Source: Acidobacteriota bacterium
Lineage (GTDB): Bacteria; Acidobacteriota; Aminicenantia; S016-38
NCBI GenBank assembly: GCA_015486055.1
Contig: WFSJ01000013.1
Coordinates: 1-64,000, forward strand
Direction of reading: 5' to 3'
Length of the DNA: 64,000 bases
The position numbers and the translations under genes were made by a program. Below are positions 42,749 to 50,981 of this stretch, in pieces. Within the stretch, counting starts at the first letter, position 1. Every line of letters starts with the position of its first letter. The notes beneath the pieces were generated by a model. That model did no database searches. It saw nothing but the letters and a program-made list of their open reading frames with translations, and was not told the DNA's origin.

Positions 42749-42778
42749 ATAACGAAAGCTCAAAAAAGGAGGTAAAAA

Positions 42779-45490
42779 ATGAGAAGATTAACTGAGATGC
42801 TTATTTTTATAATCGCTCTTTTTTTAATACTCCAGGGATGTGCTGAAAAGAGAATAAAAACTGAATATATTACTATAAAGCCAGGGGACTGGGTTGTCCT
42901 TGGAGAGAGAAAGCCAGAACTTCCCCGTCAAGTCCTCCTCGCCATAGAGAAAGTTCCTACCTGGTTAAAAGATGAATTAAGATGGAAAATGGAGGAACTA
43001 TACCTGACAAAAATGAAATTCAATGGTTTATCCTCCCCTGCTCTCTTGGACATAAATTCAGACGGACTAAATGACCTGATTGTAGGTACAAAAGATGGAA
43101 TAGTGGAAATCTTTCTAAATGTTGGCTCAAAACACCATCCTATCTTTAAAAAAGTGTCCAATTTATATCCTGGGATAGATGTCGTTGATGATGCCACCCC
43201 ATTCCCAGTGGATGTGGATGGAGATGGAGACATTGATCTTGTGTTTGGAAACAACAGGGGAAAGGTTATCCTTTACGAAAATGTGGGACTAAAAAACGGC
43301 AGGGTACAGTTTAAGGAAAGAAGAGACTTTTTTGTTGTAGAGAAAAAAGACGACAAGGGCAAGAAGAAAGAGGAGATAGATGTCGGGGAGTATTCGGTAC
43401 CTCTTCTTTTCGATATGAACGGCAAGGGAATTCTTGACCTCATAGTCGGGTCTAAAGATGGAAAAATTCACCATTTTATAAATACGGGTACCAGAAAACA
43501 TCCTGAATGGAAAGAGGATCTGGATGAGAAGGCAAAAACAGGTTTACTATATAAGCATGTGTCCCTGTTCCACGGTATAAACGTGGAGGAAAGGGCTGCT
43601 CCGGCTCTATACTACTCTAAGATACACGGCAAAAAGATCCTTACGCTGTTAGTTTTTGACAATAAAGGAGAACCTAAAGTTTATACCTATGATTTTGGAG
43701 GACATGTTGAAAAAAAATTCTCTAAATTCCCACCGGATATTTATACTTCCCACTGGAAAGAGTCCAAAATAGTTGGCAAAATGATAAAACCTTGGCCTCC
43801 TGAAAAGGGAGTTCTCATCCCCAGGGTTTTTGACTTTGACGGGGACGGCAATGAGGATATGCTTATAGGAAGTTCTTCTGGAAAAATCCACCTTATAAAG
43901 GACATCGCCACAAAGAATGCTACCCATAAGATTTCTCTGCAAAATCTGACAGGAGGAAGCGAATCTCTGGGAGGATACGACATTATCAGTGGGGGAACAA
44001 ATGAACATACCGCTCTTAAATTTCTCAACCCAAAATATGTAAATGCATATTCCAAGCTCATATTAAGTTCAGAAAAGAAATATGTGGACGAGGTAGCCTT
44101 TACTATTGCCCATACTGCAACAAAAGTTTTAAAGGCCATGGTCGATTCTCCCGAAGATAAAGAGGGCATAAGTTATTCCCCTGAAGTCCTTCTTGAAAAT
44201 GCTAAAGAACTATACAAAATCGCAAGAACCTTGCCCTATGTAAGGCTCGTTGAAAAAAGAAATTACACTACTGTAGCCCTTATGTGGAAGGATGGAAAAT
44301 GGCATGAACTTCCCAAAAAATTTTATTATTGGTATATAGTGCACCCCAGAACAAGGTTTGAGGCACCATCATATTATCTGGGTAAGTTCTGGAGGGAATA
44401 TCTCTTTACTAATAACAAATATGGCAAAAGTCTTTACGAAGCTGTAAAAGATGCCAAGAATGCATACAATGCTATAGAAAAAGCTCACAAATGGACAAGG
44501 GTATTTTTTGAATGGGGAGAAGAAAGTCACGACAAATTACCCCAGGAACCCTACAATGCCAATTACGGCTCATGTGGCGAATGGAGCATATTTGGAGTGG
44601 CTATTGGAAGGACCCTCTTAATACCCACAAGGCTTGCGAATGATTGGGGAGAAGACCATGTCTGGAATGAATTTTACAGTGACGGCAAGTGGCATCACTG
44701 GGATATAAATTCAGATGTCAAAAAGGGATTGGACAACCCGAGACTCTATGAAAGAAATTGGAAAAAATTCATTTCCTCTGTGTGGACTATAAGGGGAGAT
44801 GATTCTATTTATCCTATCTCAGAAAAATACACAGGCCTTGCCACTGTAAAATTAAAGGTAGTAGATGATGAAGAAAATAAAAGCCCTATTGCAGGAGCTA
44901 TGGTTGTAGTCCTTTCAGGATGGGCTCCTGAGAAGGGATACGACAAGGCGCCCCTCCTCTCTATCTGGGGGGTTACCGACGAAAATGGAGAGGTGAAGTT
45001 TAAGCTAGGAGAAAATAAATACAAATTCCTTATTTCCGCTCCTAATTATGGTCTGAAGACCGTAGAGCTTCAGGACTCTCAGGGAAATAAGAATCACATA
45101 ATAGAGGGTAAAAATTACGATATTCTTGTCTCCTATGGATATAGTATTCAGAGAGCGAAAAAATACAAAAAACCAATAGTAAAATGGAAGAAGCTCGCAG
45201 GCAGAATTTTAAAAATCAAGACCTCTTCCTTTCAGAAAATAAGGGTTCCTCTTGATTACCCTGCAAAATACCATTACATAACAGGAAATGAGGTCACAGT
45301 TCCCTCAGAAGGTAAACTAATTTACTTCATCTGTAGTAAGGCAGAGGAGGAAAAGTTCGAAAAGGGGCAGAACTTCAAAGTCATAGCCTATGGAACAGTG
45401 GACAAAGAAATTAGACTTCCAAAAGGTTACAGACTGGTCTTTCTTAATCAAAGCAAGGCTACATGGTTCAGAGTAAGAATAAACCGCTAA
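42779..45490 (+). CDS. Lipoprotein with FG-GAP/VCBS repeats and a PNGase-like transglutaminase core
   Basis: This 903-residue exported lipoprotein has a lipobox IILQGCAEK-like end of the signal peptide (ILQGCAEK; Cys near residue 21). Four FG-GAP-type beta-propeller repeats follow (about 80-400), each with a D-x-D/N-x-DG-x-x-D calcium loop such as VDVDGDGDIDLVFG and FDFDGDGNEDMLIG. Next comes a helical part (420-560) and a transglutaminase-fold domain with Cys599 in YGSCGEW, His627 in DHVWNE and Asp642 in HHWDIN. The CGEW and DHVW spacing resembles peptide:N-glycanase cores. The C-terminus holds a beta-sandwich with an AGAMVVVLSGW segment. It may cut or crosslink surface peptides or glycopeptides (inference). 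The strong GGAGG fixes the start. Confidence 0.85.
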   Translation: MRRLTEMLIFIIALFLILQGCAEKRIKTEYITIKPGDWVVLGERKPELPRQVLLAIEKVPTWLKDELRWKMEELYLTKMKFNGLSSPALLDINSDGLNDLIVGTKDGIVEIFLNVGSKHHPIFKKVSNLYPGIDVVDDATPFPVDVDGDGDIDLVFGNNRGKVILYENVGLKNGRVQFKERRDFFVVEKKDDKGKKKEEIDVGEYSVPLLFDMNGKGILDLIVGSKDGKIHHFINTGTRKHPEWKEDLDEKAKTGLLYKHVSLFHGINVEERAAPALYYSKIHGKKILTLLVFDNKGEPKVYTYDFGGHVEKKFSKFPPDIYTSHWKESKIVGKMIKPWPPEKGVLIPRVFDFDGDGNEDMLIGSSSGKIHLIKDIATKNATHKISLQNLTGGSESLGGYDIISGGTNEHTALKFLNPKYVNAYSKLILSSEKKYVDEVAFTIAHTATKVLKAMVDSPEDKEGISYSPEVLLENAKELYKIARTLPYVRLVEKRNYTTVALMWKDGKWHELPKKFYYWYIVHPRTRFEAPSYYLGKFWREYLFTNNKYGKSLYEAVKDAKNAYNAIEKAHKWTRVFFEWGEESHDKLPQEPYNANYGSCGEWSIFGVAIGRTLLIPTRLANDWGEDHVWNEFYSDGKWHHWDINSDVKKGLDNPRLYERNWKKFISSVWTIRGDDSIYPISEKYTGLATVKLKVVDDEENKSPIAGAMVVVLSGWAPEKGYDKAPLLSIWGVTDENGEVKFKLGENKYKFLISAPNYGLKTVELQDSQGNKNHIIEGKNYDILVSYGYSIQRAKKYKKPIVKWKKLAGRILKIKTSSFQKIRVPLDYPAKYHYITGNEVTVPSEGKLIYFICSKAEEEKFEKGQNFKVIAYGTVDKEIRLPKGYRLVFLNQSKATWFRVRINR

Positions 45491-45513: not shown

Positions 45514-47625
45514 TTATTTTAAGAAACGGTCAAAGAAATTTGCTGAGGCTTGATAGGCTTTAAGCCAGGTTTTGTGCATTAGAAAATCGTGAATTTCATC
45601 AGGAAAAATTAAAGTCTCCACATGGGCTTTTCCTAATTCCCTGAGTCTCTGGACGAGATCAGTAGTTTGGATAAAGTCAACATTGCGATCATCGTCTCCG
45701 TGAATAAAAAGCACAGGTGACGTCCACGAATCTACATCAGCCACAGGAGAAGATTTATATGCAACCCTTAGCTCTTCTCGTCCCTCTATTCTCCAGTCTT
45801 CGCTTCCTCTCATCATTCCTCTGTAGGACCAGTCATGGACACCATGAAAATCCACACCTGCTGTGAAAAGGTCTGAATTCCTCGCAAGCCCCAGAGCCGT
45901 TAGATAACCGCCGTATGAACCTCCCCATAGGCCAATTTTAAGTGGGTTGACAAAGGGGAGTCTCTGAAGGAATTTTGCCCCGGCCACAATATCTTGATAC
46001 TCAGATGCTCCTTCAGGGCCCTGATTAGGAGCAGTTCTAAAAGCAGCTCCATAGCCAATACCTGAGCGATAATTTACAGAAAGTACCACATAGCCTTTGC
46101 TCACAAGATACTGGTTAAAGGCATAGGAGTTATGATAATACTCAAAGTAATGCCATCCCAAAACCATCTGGCGAATCGGACCCCCATGCATAAATATAAT
46201 TCCAGGTCGAGAATCTCCTGTCTTTACGCCCTCTGGGACAAAAAGCTGTCCGTGGATTTTAAGACCATCTCCGGCCTTAAAAATCACTTTTACGGGCTTG
46301 ATAATTTTCTTTATGGGGAAATTTGTAGGAATAAGCTCAGGCGAAATAAGCTTCGGTCTTCCTCCTTTTATGGGAATTACAGCTGGTGCTGCAGGCTGCT
46401 TTGCAGTGGAACAGATGAGGACTATGTTTTTACCTGAGGGAACTACCACAGGGCTCCATTCTATCCCCTTCCCGGATGTCAAAGGTTTTGGCTCACCGCC
46501 ATATATGGAAACTTCCCAGAGATGCCTCCTGTCTATGTCGCCCTTATTTGAATTGAATATCAATGTTTTCCCGTCAGGGCCTATAGCAAGATTTTCTACC
46601 TCATATCTACCTGGGGTAAGGCAAAGAACCTTCCTATCCCTTAGCAATAGAGAATACAAATGCATCCACCCGTCCTGTTCAGAATAGAAGATTAGATGGT
46701 CATTGCCAGCCCAAAGTAAAGGATGGTGAGGATAATACTGGGCAAATCCACCGCCCTTTACGACTTCAAATACTTTTTCCCCTTTGCCTGTATAAATATT
46801 AAAAATCCAGATGGAAAATGGAGCATTCCATACATCCCAGATGGGTTTCCTTTTCATTTTCGCTCCAGGAAGTCGTATGAAGGCAATGCGTCTTCCGTCA
46901 GGAGACCAGACAGGACAAAGGTCCCTGTTTACATTCGGAAGGAGCCATTTTATTTCTTTCTTTCCAAGATTATAAATACCAATAAAGCTATGGTCATTTC
47001 TGATACTTACAAATGCCAATTGAGAACCATCAGGAGACCAGTTAAAGAAACGATTATTTCCTCTAACTTTGAATAGAACTCCTGGTTTTTGGGTACCATT
47101 TAGAGGGACAACGAAAACCTTCCCCTGATTTCTAAAAACTACAAGGTCTCCTTTAGGGGAAATTACTGGTTCTGTGCCCTGGCCGAGTTTCCACGGTTTT
47201 CCGCCTTTCACTTTTATGGCCCAGACATCTCTTTCAACACCCTCAGGATTGCTGTTAGGATTAGGGTATTCTCCTCTCTTATTAGGTTCCCCTCCTAAAA
47301 CATAAACTAAAATGTTCCCATCAGGGGAGAATCCAAGATGTGAAATTTCTTGTCCATTGTCTTCAGTATAATTTGTTATCCGTCGTGCTACATAATTTGG
47401 CCCGTCGGCGACCCAGATATTCCTTTTACCTTGGTCATCAAAGACCCACGCTACCCTATCTTTTCTCTGAGCTACAATTATATGGGATGGGAAGGGAACG
47501 CTAAGAACATCTTTTAAGGTGAAGGAAAGAAGATTTTTGTAGGACACAAGAGATAGGAAGAGGAAAAAGAGTAAAGGAATTAACCACTGCCCATTTTTAT
47601 TTTTTCCTCTTATGCCTGCTTTCAT
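45514..47625 (-). CDS. S9-family (prolyl oligopeptidase/acylaminoacyl) serine peptidase, exported
   Basis: This 703-residue peptidase has an N-terminal signal/anchor (residues 12-35), WD-like PD40 beta-propeller repeats (about 60-400; LGFSPDGN, NWSPDGSQLAF, VWSPDGRRIAF) and a C-terminal alpha/beta-hydrolase. The catalytic serine is Ser570 in LWGGSYGGYLTALG, the aspartate is in FIHGDDDRNVDF and the histidine in DEIHDFLM; HGGPIRQ lies at the oxyanion region. It cleaves small peptides outside the inner membrane. The ATG at 47625 follows AAGGAGGTG; the upstream in-frame ATG at 47643 overlaps that ribosome site. It is divergent from the tricorn-like gene. Confidence 0.93.
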   Translation of the reverse strand: MKAGIRGKNKNGQWLIPLLFFLFLSLVSYKNLLSFTLKDVLSVPFPSHIIVAQRKDRVAWVFDDQGKRNIWVADGPNYVARRITNYTEDNGQEISHLGFSPDGNILVYVLGGEPNKRGEYPNPNSNPEGVERDVWAIKVKGGKPWKLGQGTEPVISPKGDLVVFRNQGKVFVVPLNGTQKPGVLFKVRGNNRFFNWSPDGSQLAFVSIRNDHSFIGIYNLGKKEIKWLLPNVNRDLCPVWSPDGRRIAFIRLPGAKMKRKPIWDVWNAPFSIWIFNIYTGKGEKVFEVVKGGGFAQYYPHHPLLWAGNDHLIFYSEQDGWMHLYSLLLRDRKVLCLTPGRYEVENLAIGPDGKTLIFNSNKGDIDRRHLWEVSIYGGEPKPLTSGKGIEWSPVVVPSGKNIVLICSTAKQPAAPAVIPIKGGRPKLISPELIPTNFPIKKIIKPVKVIFKAGDGLKIHGQLFVPEGVKTGDSRPGIIFMHGGPIRQMVLGWHYFEYYHNSYAFNQYLVSKGYVVLSVNYRSGIGYGAAFRTAPNQGPEGASEYQDIVAGAKFLQRLPFVNPLKIGLWGGSYGGYLTALGLARNSDLFTAGVDFHGVHDWSYRGMMRGSEDWRIEGREELRVAYKSSPVADVDSWTSPVLFIHGDDDRNVDFIQTTDLVQRLRELGKAHVETLIFPDEIHDFLMHKTWLKAYQASANFFDRFLK

Positions 47626-47643
47626 AATTTCACCTCCTTCCAT

Positions 47644-47816: not shown

Positions 47817-50800
47817 ATGAAGAAGGTCTTTGTTTTTCTACTCGCTCTGGGGTTGAGCTTTGCCTCTACAAAGCTTTTGAGGACCCCGCAAATAAGTGGG
47901 AACAAAATTGTTTTCTCTTACCAGGGAGATATCTGGATTGCCCCGGCTACAGGAGGCACTGCCCACAAGCTAACCTCAGCTCCTGGCTTCGAGGCCTATC
48001 CAAGGTTCTCTCCTGACGGTAAATATGTGGCATTTATTGGCCAGTACTATGGTGGAAACGATGTTTATGTGGTTCCAACAAAAGGAGGCGATCCGAAAAA
48101 ACTCACCTATCATACAAGTTCTGAGATGGTAGTTGGCTGGTCCCCGAAAGGTAAGGTGATATTCACATCTGACAGGGAAACCATTTTCCCTACTGTTCTT
48201 AAGTTTTACGCTGTTGGAATAAATGGTGGATTCCCGAAAGCTCTTCCAATCGACAGAGGAAGCTTTATAGATTTTTCTCCTGACGGAAAATATGTAGCAT
48301 TTAACAGAAACAGCGGTTATTTCTGGTGGTGGAAACGATATAAGGGAAGTGCAAATTTAGATGTATGGCTCCTTGATAAAAAGACAGGAAAGTTCACAAA
48401 ATTAACTAACTGGAAAGGTAACGACTCTTGGCCAATGTTTGGAAAGGACGGAAAAATCTATTTTGTCTCCGACAGACAAGGAATGGCAAATCTATATTCA
48501 ATGGACTTCAAGGCAAAGAACCCAAAAAGCACAATAAAAAAGCTCACTAATTTCAAAAATATAAATATTGAGTGGCCCTCAATTTCTACTGAAAGGGACA
48601 GAATAGCTTTTGAGGCAGGCGGAAACCTCTATGTTTACACTATAAAAAACGGGAAACTTCAGAAACTTGATATAAATGCTTCTGGAGATTTGCCCTTCAA
48701 TTTAAAGGAAGTTTATAATCCGAAAAAGCTTATCCAAGATTATGATATATCTCCAAATGGCAAAAGGGTTTTGGTTGTGGCAAGGGGCGAGGTATTCTCA
48801 ATTCCCGCAAAATATGGACCCACAAGAAATATCTCAAAAACTCCTGCAAGGGAGGAATGGGCAACATGGGCTCCTGACGGAAAGCGTATAGCTTATTTCT
48901 CTGACGAAAATGGAGAATTCCAGCTCTACATAGTAAAGGAAAAAACAGGGGAAAAGGAAAAGATAACAAATATTCCAAAATTTAAATACAATCCAGTTTG
49001 GGCCCCTGATTCAAAGAAAATAGCCTTCTCAACTAATGATGGGAAGATATATGTAGTTTATCTCGAGAAGAAAAAGCTGACAACGGTTGACAGGAACAGA
49101 ACCGGCCTGGTTACCGACTTCTCATGGTCCCCGGATTCCAAATGGCTTGCCTATGTTCTCAGGAATAAAGTGGGATATGGAAGCATATATGTTTTTAACT
49201 CCCTTACAAAGAAAAAAAAGCCCCTTATAATCTCATCGTTCAGTGACTACGAACCTGAATTCACACAGGACGGAAAGAGGTTGATTTATCTATCAACAAG
49301 CGTGATAAAACTCAACTACAACTTCTTTGCAGGCAATTTTTCATCAAATGCAGAGGTAAAATTAATGAGCCTTGACCTTGTCCCAGGATTGAAGGATATT
49401 TACAAACCCAAACCTGACGAAGAGGAAAACGGAGAAAAGAAGGAAGAAAAGGGCAAAAAGACCAAGAAAAAGGAAAAAATAAATGTGAAGATAGACTTCA
49501 ACAATATAGAAGCAAGGATTAAAACTGTACCTGTAAAGCCCGGCAGTTACACTGCACTTTCTACAACAAAGAGTTATTATTTATTCCTTGACCGGGCGGA
49601 AAAAACTCTTAAAGCATACAATATAAAGACAAGAAAGATAGAAACTCTGATAAAGGGTGTAAAGGATTATGCTCTTTCTGCAAAGGGAACCCATATCGCA
49701 TATATGAAGGGTAAGAATATTGCCATAGCAAAGGTCGGAAAGGTGCAGAAGGATGAGTTCGTTTCACTTGATGCCATGAGTATGGAACTCAACAGGGTGG
49801 CAGAATGGAGACAGATCTTCCATGAAGCATGGAGAATGGTTAGGGACTTCTTCTATGACAAAAGAATTCATGGGCTCAACTGGAAGGCGATCGGAAAGAA
49901 ATATGAGACTCTTCTTCCCTATGTAAGAACAAGGCAGGAGTTGAATACATTAATTGAGGAAATGGTTGGAGAGCTTAATGCTTCACACCAAGGAGCAAGG
50001 GGAGGAGATTATGGAATTAAACTTCCAACATACAATGTAGGGTACATAGGAGCAAGCTTCAATCCTGATTATAAAAAGGAGCTTTACAAAATAAAGCACA
50101 TTTATTCTCAGGATCCTGATGTTGAAGCATTCAAAAATCCGATTTCAGGTCTTGCAAAGGAAGGTGAATATATAATCTCAATAGATGGGGAGAAGATAAC
50201 CACAAAAAGAAATATTTATTCTTACTTGGTAGGAAAGTCCAAAAAGGAAGTAGAAATAGTTCTCTCGCCGGATGGAACCCCAGAAAAATCTAGGAAAATC
50301 ACAGTAAAAACTCTTCCATCTGAGAAAAACCTTATATACCATGATTGGGTTGCTAAGAAAAGGAAATATGTAGATGTAAAGAGCGGCGGGAAAATAGGAT
50401 ATATTCACCTAAGGGATATGGTAACCTTCGGAATGACCCAGTTCCTTCGCTGGATTAATGCCTACAGATATAAAGATGCCATCATACTGGATGTCAGATT
50501 CAACGGAGGAGGAGGAATAGACCCATACTTAATAGATATTCTTGAGAGAAGACAGTATCAAACAGTAAAGGGAAGAAACCAAGAAGTGGTCGAAAGGCCA
50601 ATGAGCGCATTCTACGGGCATGTGGCAGTTCTTATAAATCAATTCTCATACTCGGATGCAGAGGTTTTCCCTGCAGGCTTTAAAGCAAGGAAACTTGGAA
50701 CCCTTATCGGAGTTCCAACCCTTGGATTTGTTATAGCAGTTACAGCTCATCCTATGATAGACGGGGGCTATGTAAGACAAACAAGCTGGGGACTCTGGGA

Positions 50801-50981
50801 ACTTAGTGGAAAAATGCTTGAAGCAAGAGGTGCAATCCCTGACATATATGTGGAAAATCCACCTGAAGCCGTTTTGGAGGGGAAAGACCCTCAGCTTGAT
50901 AGGGCCATTGAATTCCTAATGAAACAGATAAAGAAACATCCAAGGAAAAAATATCCAATAAACTATTTTAAAAAACATTGA
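47817..50981 (+). CDS. Tricorn-like S41 protease, exported
   Basis: This 1054-residue homologue of the tricorn protease has a signal peptide (residues 1-17). An N-terminal propeller of PD40 repeats follows (RFSPDGKYVAFIG, TWAPDGKRIAYFSDENGE, VWAPDSKKIAFST). Then come a lysine/glutamate-rich linker (about 535-560), a helical C1-like region, a PDZ domain (about 755-850) and the S41 catalytic domain. Tricorn's active residues appear in order: Ser723-His724 (LNASHQG), Ser946-Asp947 (FSYSDAEVFPAG) and Glu1002 (MLEARGAIPD). It should cut oligopeptides into di- and tripeptides outside the cytoplasm. Classical archaeal tricorn is cytosolic; the secreted version is the oddity here. CGGAGG supports the start. 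Confidence 0.93.
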   Translation: MKKVFVFLLALGLSFASTKLLRTPQISGNKIVFSYQGDIWIAPATGGTAHKLTSAPGFEAYPRFSPDGKYVAFIGQYYGGNDVYVVPTKGGDPKKLTYHTSSEMVVGWSPKGKVIFTSDRETIFPTVLKFYAVGINGGFPKALPIDRGSFIDFSPDGKYVAFNRNSGYFWWWKRYKGSANLDVWLLDKKTGKFTKLTNWKGNDSWPMFGKDGKIYFVSDRQGMANLYSMDFKAKNPKSTIKKLTNFKNINIEWPSISTERDRIAFEAGGNLYVYTIKNGKLQKLDINASGDLPFNLKEVYNPKKLIQDYDISPNGKRVLVVARGEVFSIPAKYGPTRNISKTPAREEWATWAPDGKRIAYFSDENGEFQLYIVKEKTGEKEKITNIPKFKYNPVWAPDSKKIAFSTNDGKIYVVYLEKKKLTTVDRNRTGLVTDFSWSPDSKWLAYVLRNKVGYGSIYVFNSLTKKKKPLIISSFSDYEPEFTQDGKRLIYLSTSVIKLNYNFFAGNFSSNAEVKLMSLDLVPGLKDIYKPKPDEEENGEKKEEKGKKTKKKEKINVKIDFNNIEARIKTVPVKPGSYTALSTTKSYYLFLDRAEKTLKAYNIKTRKIETLIKGVKDYALSAKGTHIAYMKGKNIAIAKVGKVQKDEFVSLDAMSMELNRVAEWRQIFHEAWRMVRDFFYDKRIHGLNWKAIGKKYETLLPYVRTRQELNTLIEEMVGELNASHQGARGGDYGIKLPTYNVGYIGASFNPDYKKELYKIKHIYSQDPDVEAFKNPISGLAKEGEYIISIDGEKITTKRNIYSYLVGKSKKEVEIVLSPDGTPEKSRKITVKTLPSEKNLIYHDWVAKKRKYVDVKSGGKIGYIHLRDMVTFGMTQFLRWINAYRYKDAIILDVRFNGGGGIDPYLIDILERRQYQTVKGRNQEVVERPMSAFYGHVAVLINQFSYSDAEVFPAGFKARKLGTLIGVPTLGFVIAVTAHPMIDGGYVRQTSWGLWELSGKMLEARGAIPDIYVENPPEAVLEGKDPQLDRAIEFLMKQIKKHPRKKYPINYFKKH

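Follow-up and report, generated by a model that had tools for sequence, protein, structure and literature searches.

Cytosolic peptide:N-glycanase (PNGase; yeast Png1 and mouse/human NGLY1; PDB entries 1x3w, 3esw, and 2f4m) is an enzyme of the transglutaminase (TG) fold and is lost in NGLY1 deficiency. Eukaryotic PNGase shares a TG-fold ancestor with XPC/Rad4, an inactive TG-fold DNA repair protein that has lost the catalytic residues; the prokaryotic relatives of this ancestor were not clear from the open-access papers that we searched. The same core fold and C..H..D signature occur in bacterial Transglut_core proteins (PF01841; e.g., Cytophaga 3isr, TgpA, and the CGEEST transglutaminases), and FG-GAP/integrin-like propellers are known from CRTAC1, KICSTOR, the BBS propellers, and the Psathyrella velutina lectin. 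We analyzed a 64,000-nucleotide stretch (the window) of contig WFSJ01000013.1 from an Acidobacteriota bacterium. One gene in the window encodes a secreted protein that keeps the catalytic residues lost in XPC/Rad4 and, unlike the propeller proteins named above, carries its FG-GAP propeller inside the N-terminal domain of an enzyme.

The gene is an intact open reading frame of 903 amino acids with an ATG start (positions 42779 to 45490; this and all features of the protein given below are on the forward strand). A Shine-Dalgarno sequence (AGGAGGT; 42767 to 42773), read directly from the sequence, is placed 5 to 6 nt before the ATG and constitutes a strong ribosome-binding site. Nearly full-length conservation was observed in three near-complete sister-genus genomes labeled Candidatus Aminicenantes (51 to 57% identity), and an ortholog with 52 to 53% identity was found in a Thermoplasmata archaeon, whose contig also carries mevalonate-pathway genes, in keeping with an archaeal source. 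Because the frame is conserved across these sister genomes and the archaeon, it is not a product of chance. By inspection, a type II signal peptide, its Cys at position +1, makes up the N-terminus of the protein (MRRLTEMLIFIIALFLILQG followed by C21). The signal peptide and lipobox (LQG-C21) span residues 1 to 21 (42779 to 42841), residues 2 to 20 form a helix in the AF2 model, and the ortholog from a second congeneric species has the lipobox LTG-C, in agreement with the original prediction of a lipid-anchored secreted protein. In the three sister-genus orthologs, the signal peptide is of the ordinary kind and the lipobox Cys is absent, and the lipid anchor is thus a genus-level feature.

An FG-GAP beta-propeller had been predicted ahead of the catalytic core, and the repeats are indeed present (about residues 78 to 400; 43010 to 43978). 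Matches to Pfam FG-GAP_3 (8.5e-15; 55.5 bits versus a cutoff of 26.9) and FG-GAP (9.5e-9; 35.4 bits versus 22.1) both exceeded the cutoffs, and Ca-type DxDxDG loops, shared with known propellers along with the repeats and fold, start at residues 91 (DINSDGLND; 43049), 145 (DVDGDGDID; 43211), 212 (DMNGKGILD, degenerate; 43412), and 352 (DFDGDGNED; 43832). The propeller is, however, not an essential partner of the core. Alignments revealed that it is missing outside the Aminicenantes and the FG-GAP-bearing Thermoplasmata, so that most family members lack it. Given that the helices P.WL...L and Y..LIL...DE.AF adjoin in propeller-less relatives and are separated by the FG-GAP block here, the propeller is an insertion into the N-terminal helical domain. 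The first helices of that domain (residues 50 to 75; 42926 to 43003; AF2 helices at 50 to 58 and 61 to 75) are thereby split from the remainder. In a Foldseek search, the propeller matched FG-GAP/integrin-like propellers and lectins, including GlcNAc- and fucose-binding ones, among many other propellers.

The remainder of the N-terminal region is a family-specific helical domain (residues 415 to 590; 44021 to 44548), delimited by alignments and AF2, for which a Pfam scan of 38 members returned no Pfam family. Its invariant residues in family alignments are D437, E438, Y516, Y517, P523, W538, and R539, and several residues of the domain are as invariant as the catalytic ones. Downstream of the core are an Ig-like (Big_1-like) domain (residues 690 to 785; 44846 to 45133), recognized from AF2 strands and from Big_1 matches in four relatives (E values of 4.6e-5 to 1.1e-3, under the Pfam cutoff), and a C-terminal beta domain (residues 800 to 903; 45176 to 45487) that is seen in AF2 and conserved in orthologs.

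The TG-fold core (residues 594 to 642; 44558 to 44704) was identified by Pfam, AF2, and Foldseek. Pfam Transglut_core matched residues 556 to 642 (4.5e-8; 33.8 bits versus a cutoff of 23), and 34 of the 38 relatives matched this family at an E value of 0.1 or better. The predicted catalytic Cys599 (NYGSCGEW, with CGEW at 599 to 602; 44573 to 44575) aligns with C191 of yeast PNGase and C306 of the mouse enzyme, and the predicted catalytic His627 (EDHVWNEF, with DHVW at 626 to 629; 44657 to 44659) aligns with yeast H218. The predicted third catalytic residue, Asp642 (44702 to 44704), follows W638 with the W-x-x-x-D spacing of PNGase (W231...D235). Invariant across the 38-member alignment are C599, G600, E601, D626, H627, W629, E631, and W638. 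Among members that are well conserved elsewhere, position 642 is D in Aminicenantes and archaea and E or Q in several bacteria, and a Cys-His-Asp triad is therefore not universal in the family. The yeast counterparts of W629, E631, W638, and R618 are W220, E222, W231, and R210; R618 varies across the wider family, and all four residues also belong to the general TG-core signature and are not PNGase specific. In an AF2 model of residues 415 to 695 (281 amino acids; pLDDT, 90.7; pTM, 0.90), with the register read at the secondary-structure level, Cys599 is at the start of a helix and His627 at the start of a strand, and Asp642 comes after the next strand. The predicted Cys-His-Asp core is thus in register, and PNGase has the same arrangement of Cys at a helix start, His at a strand start, and Asp at a strand end (PMC3502110).

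The likeness to PNGase had originally been drawn from the CGEW and DHVW motifs. As PNGase-specific motifs, these were ruled out: on the core strip (residues 594 to 642), PNGases scored 20 to 25 bits versus 25 to 38 bits for the better generic TGs, four of which (L040, L041, L066, and L016) fit the strip as well as PNGase or better. The kinship itself held, and since the core strip does not discriminate, it rests on a post-Asp module of approximately 38 residues (648 to 685; 44720 to 44833) with the pattern D.P..Y...W.K..S...D...V..Y, which is common to PNGase and XPC. On this strip, mouse and yeast PNGases scored 19.1 and 14.4 bits, respectively, compared with 8.6 bits for the best of about 4,000 shuffles and at most 5.9 bits for generic TGs.

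Other searches pointed in the same direction. The window protein alone retrieved yeast PNGase (phmmer, 1e-5), a four-sequence core profile retrieved the mouse and yeast enzymes (1e-8), and a 38-sequence profile run against the PDB retrieved both at 8e-15 to 1e-14, with the next transglutaminase (3isr) at 0.033. Profile-profile comparison with PNGase gave a probability of 98.7. A full-length Foldseek search was swamped by propeller matches and was redone with the enzymatic half, for which mouse PNGase, yeast PNGase, and XPC (2.7e-5) ranked first, with a best PNGase match of 1e-5, ahead of bacterial 3isr, and animal transglutaminases were far below; the PDB contains few TG folds, and "closest solved relative" holds within those.

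The source genome (1.86 Mb) contains six Transglut_core genes, among which a yeast PNGase probe matched only the window gene (34.6 bits). A PNGase profile made from two sequences (95 positions) matched the window gene at 43 bits and XPC at 23.8 bits. Across 22 genomes, other TG proteins reached at most 23 bits with this profile, and mostly covered its first ~60 positions only. Family members came first in most family-bearing genomes and also across 396 genomes of the phylum. A different TG protein from a Thermoplasmatota genome (L080; a 408-amino-acid open frame on a short contig) scored 37.6 bits; the stretch after its core (LSYIIAENPDGTIDDITYRYT) resembles the post-Asp stretch, making it another PNGase/XPC-like candidate. 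The catalytic core of the window protein is the closest prokaryotic look-alike of cytosolic PNGase found in the searches that we ran, and on these sequence comparisons we regard the kinship as real.

Among 84,980 species genomes scanned, family members were recovered from Candidatus Aminicenantes, Thermoplasmata archaea, Zixibacteria, WOR-3, Hydrothermota, Acidobacteria, and Myxococcota-type bacteria. The family profile gave at least 84 bits for members and at most 45 bits for other TG proteins. In Thermoplasmatota, 41 of 390 sampled genomes matched the PNGase profile at a per-genome E value of 1e-4 or better, and nearly all of the matches inspected were long exported proteins of the same family. 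Export is a shared theme: relatives carry signal peptides, and some bacterial members have type IX (T9SS) sorting tails at the C-terminus. Three Myxococcota-type proteins (L037 to L039) have a large insertion between the helical domain and the TG core, as well as Cys-rich C-terminal tails ending in Arg that resemble MYXO-CTERM sorting signals. Carriers were seen only as metagenome bins. We found no description of the family in the open-access literature searched; a plasmid search produced a single match, to the FG-GAP part alone, and a PHROGs search produced nothing significant.

In a tree based on about 100 columns, the family was monophyletic (98/97) and separated from 12 generic TG rows at 92/76. 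The original prediction had named, as outcomes that would refute it, a core that groups firmly with bacterial TG-like proteases or catalytic residues out of register; no such grouping appeared, and the register held as described above. The two PNGases paired apart from the family; PNGases, L080, and the CGEEST family were nearest, with weak branching order, and a single clade of PNGase plus the family was not rejected by the AU test (p-AU, 0.56). The sampling of this tree comprised two PNGases on the eukaryotic side and no Asgard sequences. The CGEEST proteins (L015 to L017, from G043, G030, and G039) are of the same class; they have an Ig-like domain after the core, with a solved homolog (3e8v), and no post-Asp module. 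Three proteins from Thermoplasmata metagenome-assembled genomes fell in the same subclade as the window protein: L024 grouped with the Aminicenantes orthologs (100/99), and L022 and L023 were outside them. L024 and L022 have the same propeller insertion, and the L023 sequence ends before the propeller position. The placement of these three proteins suggests transfer between archaea and Aminicenantes. The best reading of these sequence data is that the family is a secreted prokaryotic clade near eukaryotic PNGase/XPC in the TG-fold superfamily.

Compared with cytosolic PNGase, the window protein has the same TG fold, triad spacing, and W, E, and W residues, but is secreted rather than cytosolic, belongs to a separate clade, and adds the helical, propeller, Ig-like, and C-terminal domains. 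The three Cys residues in its 903 amino acids are at positions 21, 599, and 852, and the two CXXC motifs of PNGase, which make up a zinc-binding domain ahead of the catalytic Cys, are thus missing; yeast PNGase needs this domain (PMC9102325). We found no PUB or Rad23-binding parts of PNGase in the window protein. Judged from the missing zinc domain and the clade of its own, the protein is not a PNGase by membership. Bacterial Transglut_core proteins share the core fold, the signature, and the Pfam match but have neither the post-Asp module nor the helical domain of the family.

Next to the gene are an S9 prolyl-oligopeptidase-family gene (45514 to 47643, reverse strand) and a tricorn-type protease gene (47817 to 50981, forward strand), and a GH3 beta-N-acetylhexosaminidase-like gene is located two genes upstream. 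The tricorn gene is likewise adjacent in L011 and L045 (the latter from the second species of the genus) but is not kept in the sister genus, where the neighbors encode Amidase_3, DUF362, and Fer4 proteins. An EamA transporter gene is found upstream in both genera; the remaining neighbors differ, and gene context was dropped as a clue to function. Regarding host N-glycosylation, the source genome (G000) contains an STT3-type gene with a WWDKG motif (L113; G000:C47:19913-20947), from which the bacterium may make N-glycoproteins, and STT3 genes are present in several archaeal carriers. STT3 was not detected in the gene-carrying sister species G001 and G003 to G005, near-complete sister-genus genomes among them, or in the archaeon G062. 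Host N-glycosylation was therefore ruled out as a correlate, and the gene is not tied to its host's own N-glycosylation.

Because of the PNGase kinship, the invariant catalytic residues, and the export signals, the window protein is best read as a surface-anchored secreted thiol amidohydrolase acting on extracellular (glyco)protein, which we consider reasonably probable on the basis of sequence and model. His627 and Asp642 would activate Cys599, which in turn would attack a carboxamide carbon in a protein or glycopeptide outside the cell; the resulting thioester would then be released to water (deamidation/hydrolysis chemistry), and we infer hydrolysis rather than cross-linking. We envisage a substrate cleft shaped by the helical domain together with the PNGase-like post-Asp module; the Ca-stabilized propeller may dock the enzyme on its substrate or on surface glycans, and the lipid anchor would hold it on the cell. 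Regarding the putative activity, peptide or isopeptide hydrolysis has close to an even chance, N-glycan release appears unlikely, and deamidation, transamidation, or another reaction would account for the rest.

In both sequence and fold, the solved structures nearest to the window protein are PNGases, chitobiose-bound yeast 3esw among them, which raises the possibility of a true extracellular PNGase that cleaves the Asn-GlcNAc (beta-aspartylglucosylamine) bond of N-glycoproteins, e.g., those of archaeal S-layers or its own, with the propeller as a lectin-like anchor. The invariant W629, E631, and W638, the presence of R618, the lectins among the propeller matches (some FG-GAP-like lectins bind sugar), and the STT3 genes of the source genome and several archaeal carriers fit this idea. 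However, the W, E, W, and R residues are general to TG cores, the CXXC zinc domain is lacking, some carriers have no detected STT3, and the family forms its own clade, so that we consider this reading unlikely, if with an appreciable chance. The post-Asp module is retained in XPC despite its loss of catalysis and therefore need not mean glycan chemistry. This also favors an ordinary secreted TG-fold cysteine peptidase that degrades detrital protein, in which the PNGase likeness would be an old structural element irrelevant to the substrate. The S9 and tricorn-type neighbors lean weakly toward protein breakdown, carriers known only from metagenome bins fit a scavenging life, and the core strip suits generic TGs at least as well as PNGase. 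Set against this are the absence of tricorn adjacency in the sister genus and the generic bacterial TGs, including the five others of the source genome, which lack the post-Asp module or are missed by the PNGase probe. We give the peptidase slightly less than an even chance.

The TG fold with Ca-type loops nearby would also suit a Ca-dependent cross-linker (transglutaminase or deamidase) that stabilizes the cell surface, and the full-length Foldseek search also matched human transglutaminase 2, a protein with flanking beta domains as well; such a role is very improbable, given that the loops are in the propeller and not in the core and that, in the search with the catalytic half, animal transglutaminases came far behind PNGase/XPC. 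Least probable is cell-wall action on a sugar-peptide amide bond. An Amidase_3 (N-acetylmuramoyl-L-alanine amidase) gene directly downstream in one sister-genus genome, ORFs of corresponding length and location in the other two genomes, and the GH3 gene in the window hint at it, but the neighbors are not constant between genera and the family occurs widely in Thermoplasmatota, organisms that lack peptidoglycan of their own.

The source bacterium is heat loving, and the window protein is probably thermostable. Action on glycoproteins would account for the opening of N-glycosylated necromass by microbes of sediments and hot springs; a peptidase activity would show that the PNGase module is not tied to glycan chemistry. 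A secreted archaeal/bacterial family with active residues and the post-Asp module is a concrete candidate relative of the PNGase/XPC ancestor. A rather unlikely proposal is that the family serves as a prokaryotic equivalent of cytosolic PNGase and releases N-glycans extracellularly with a lectin-like FG-GAP propeller; if true, it would represent a separate, independently built prokaryotic route of de-N-glycosylation alongside the PNGase F-type enzymes and would be informative about the prokaryotic roots of the PNGase/XPC lineage.
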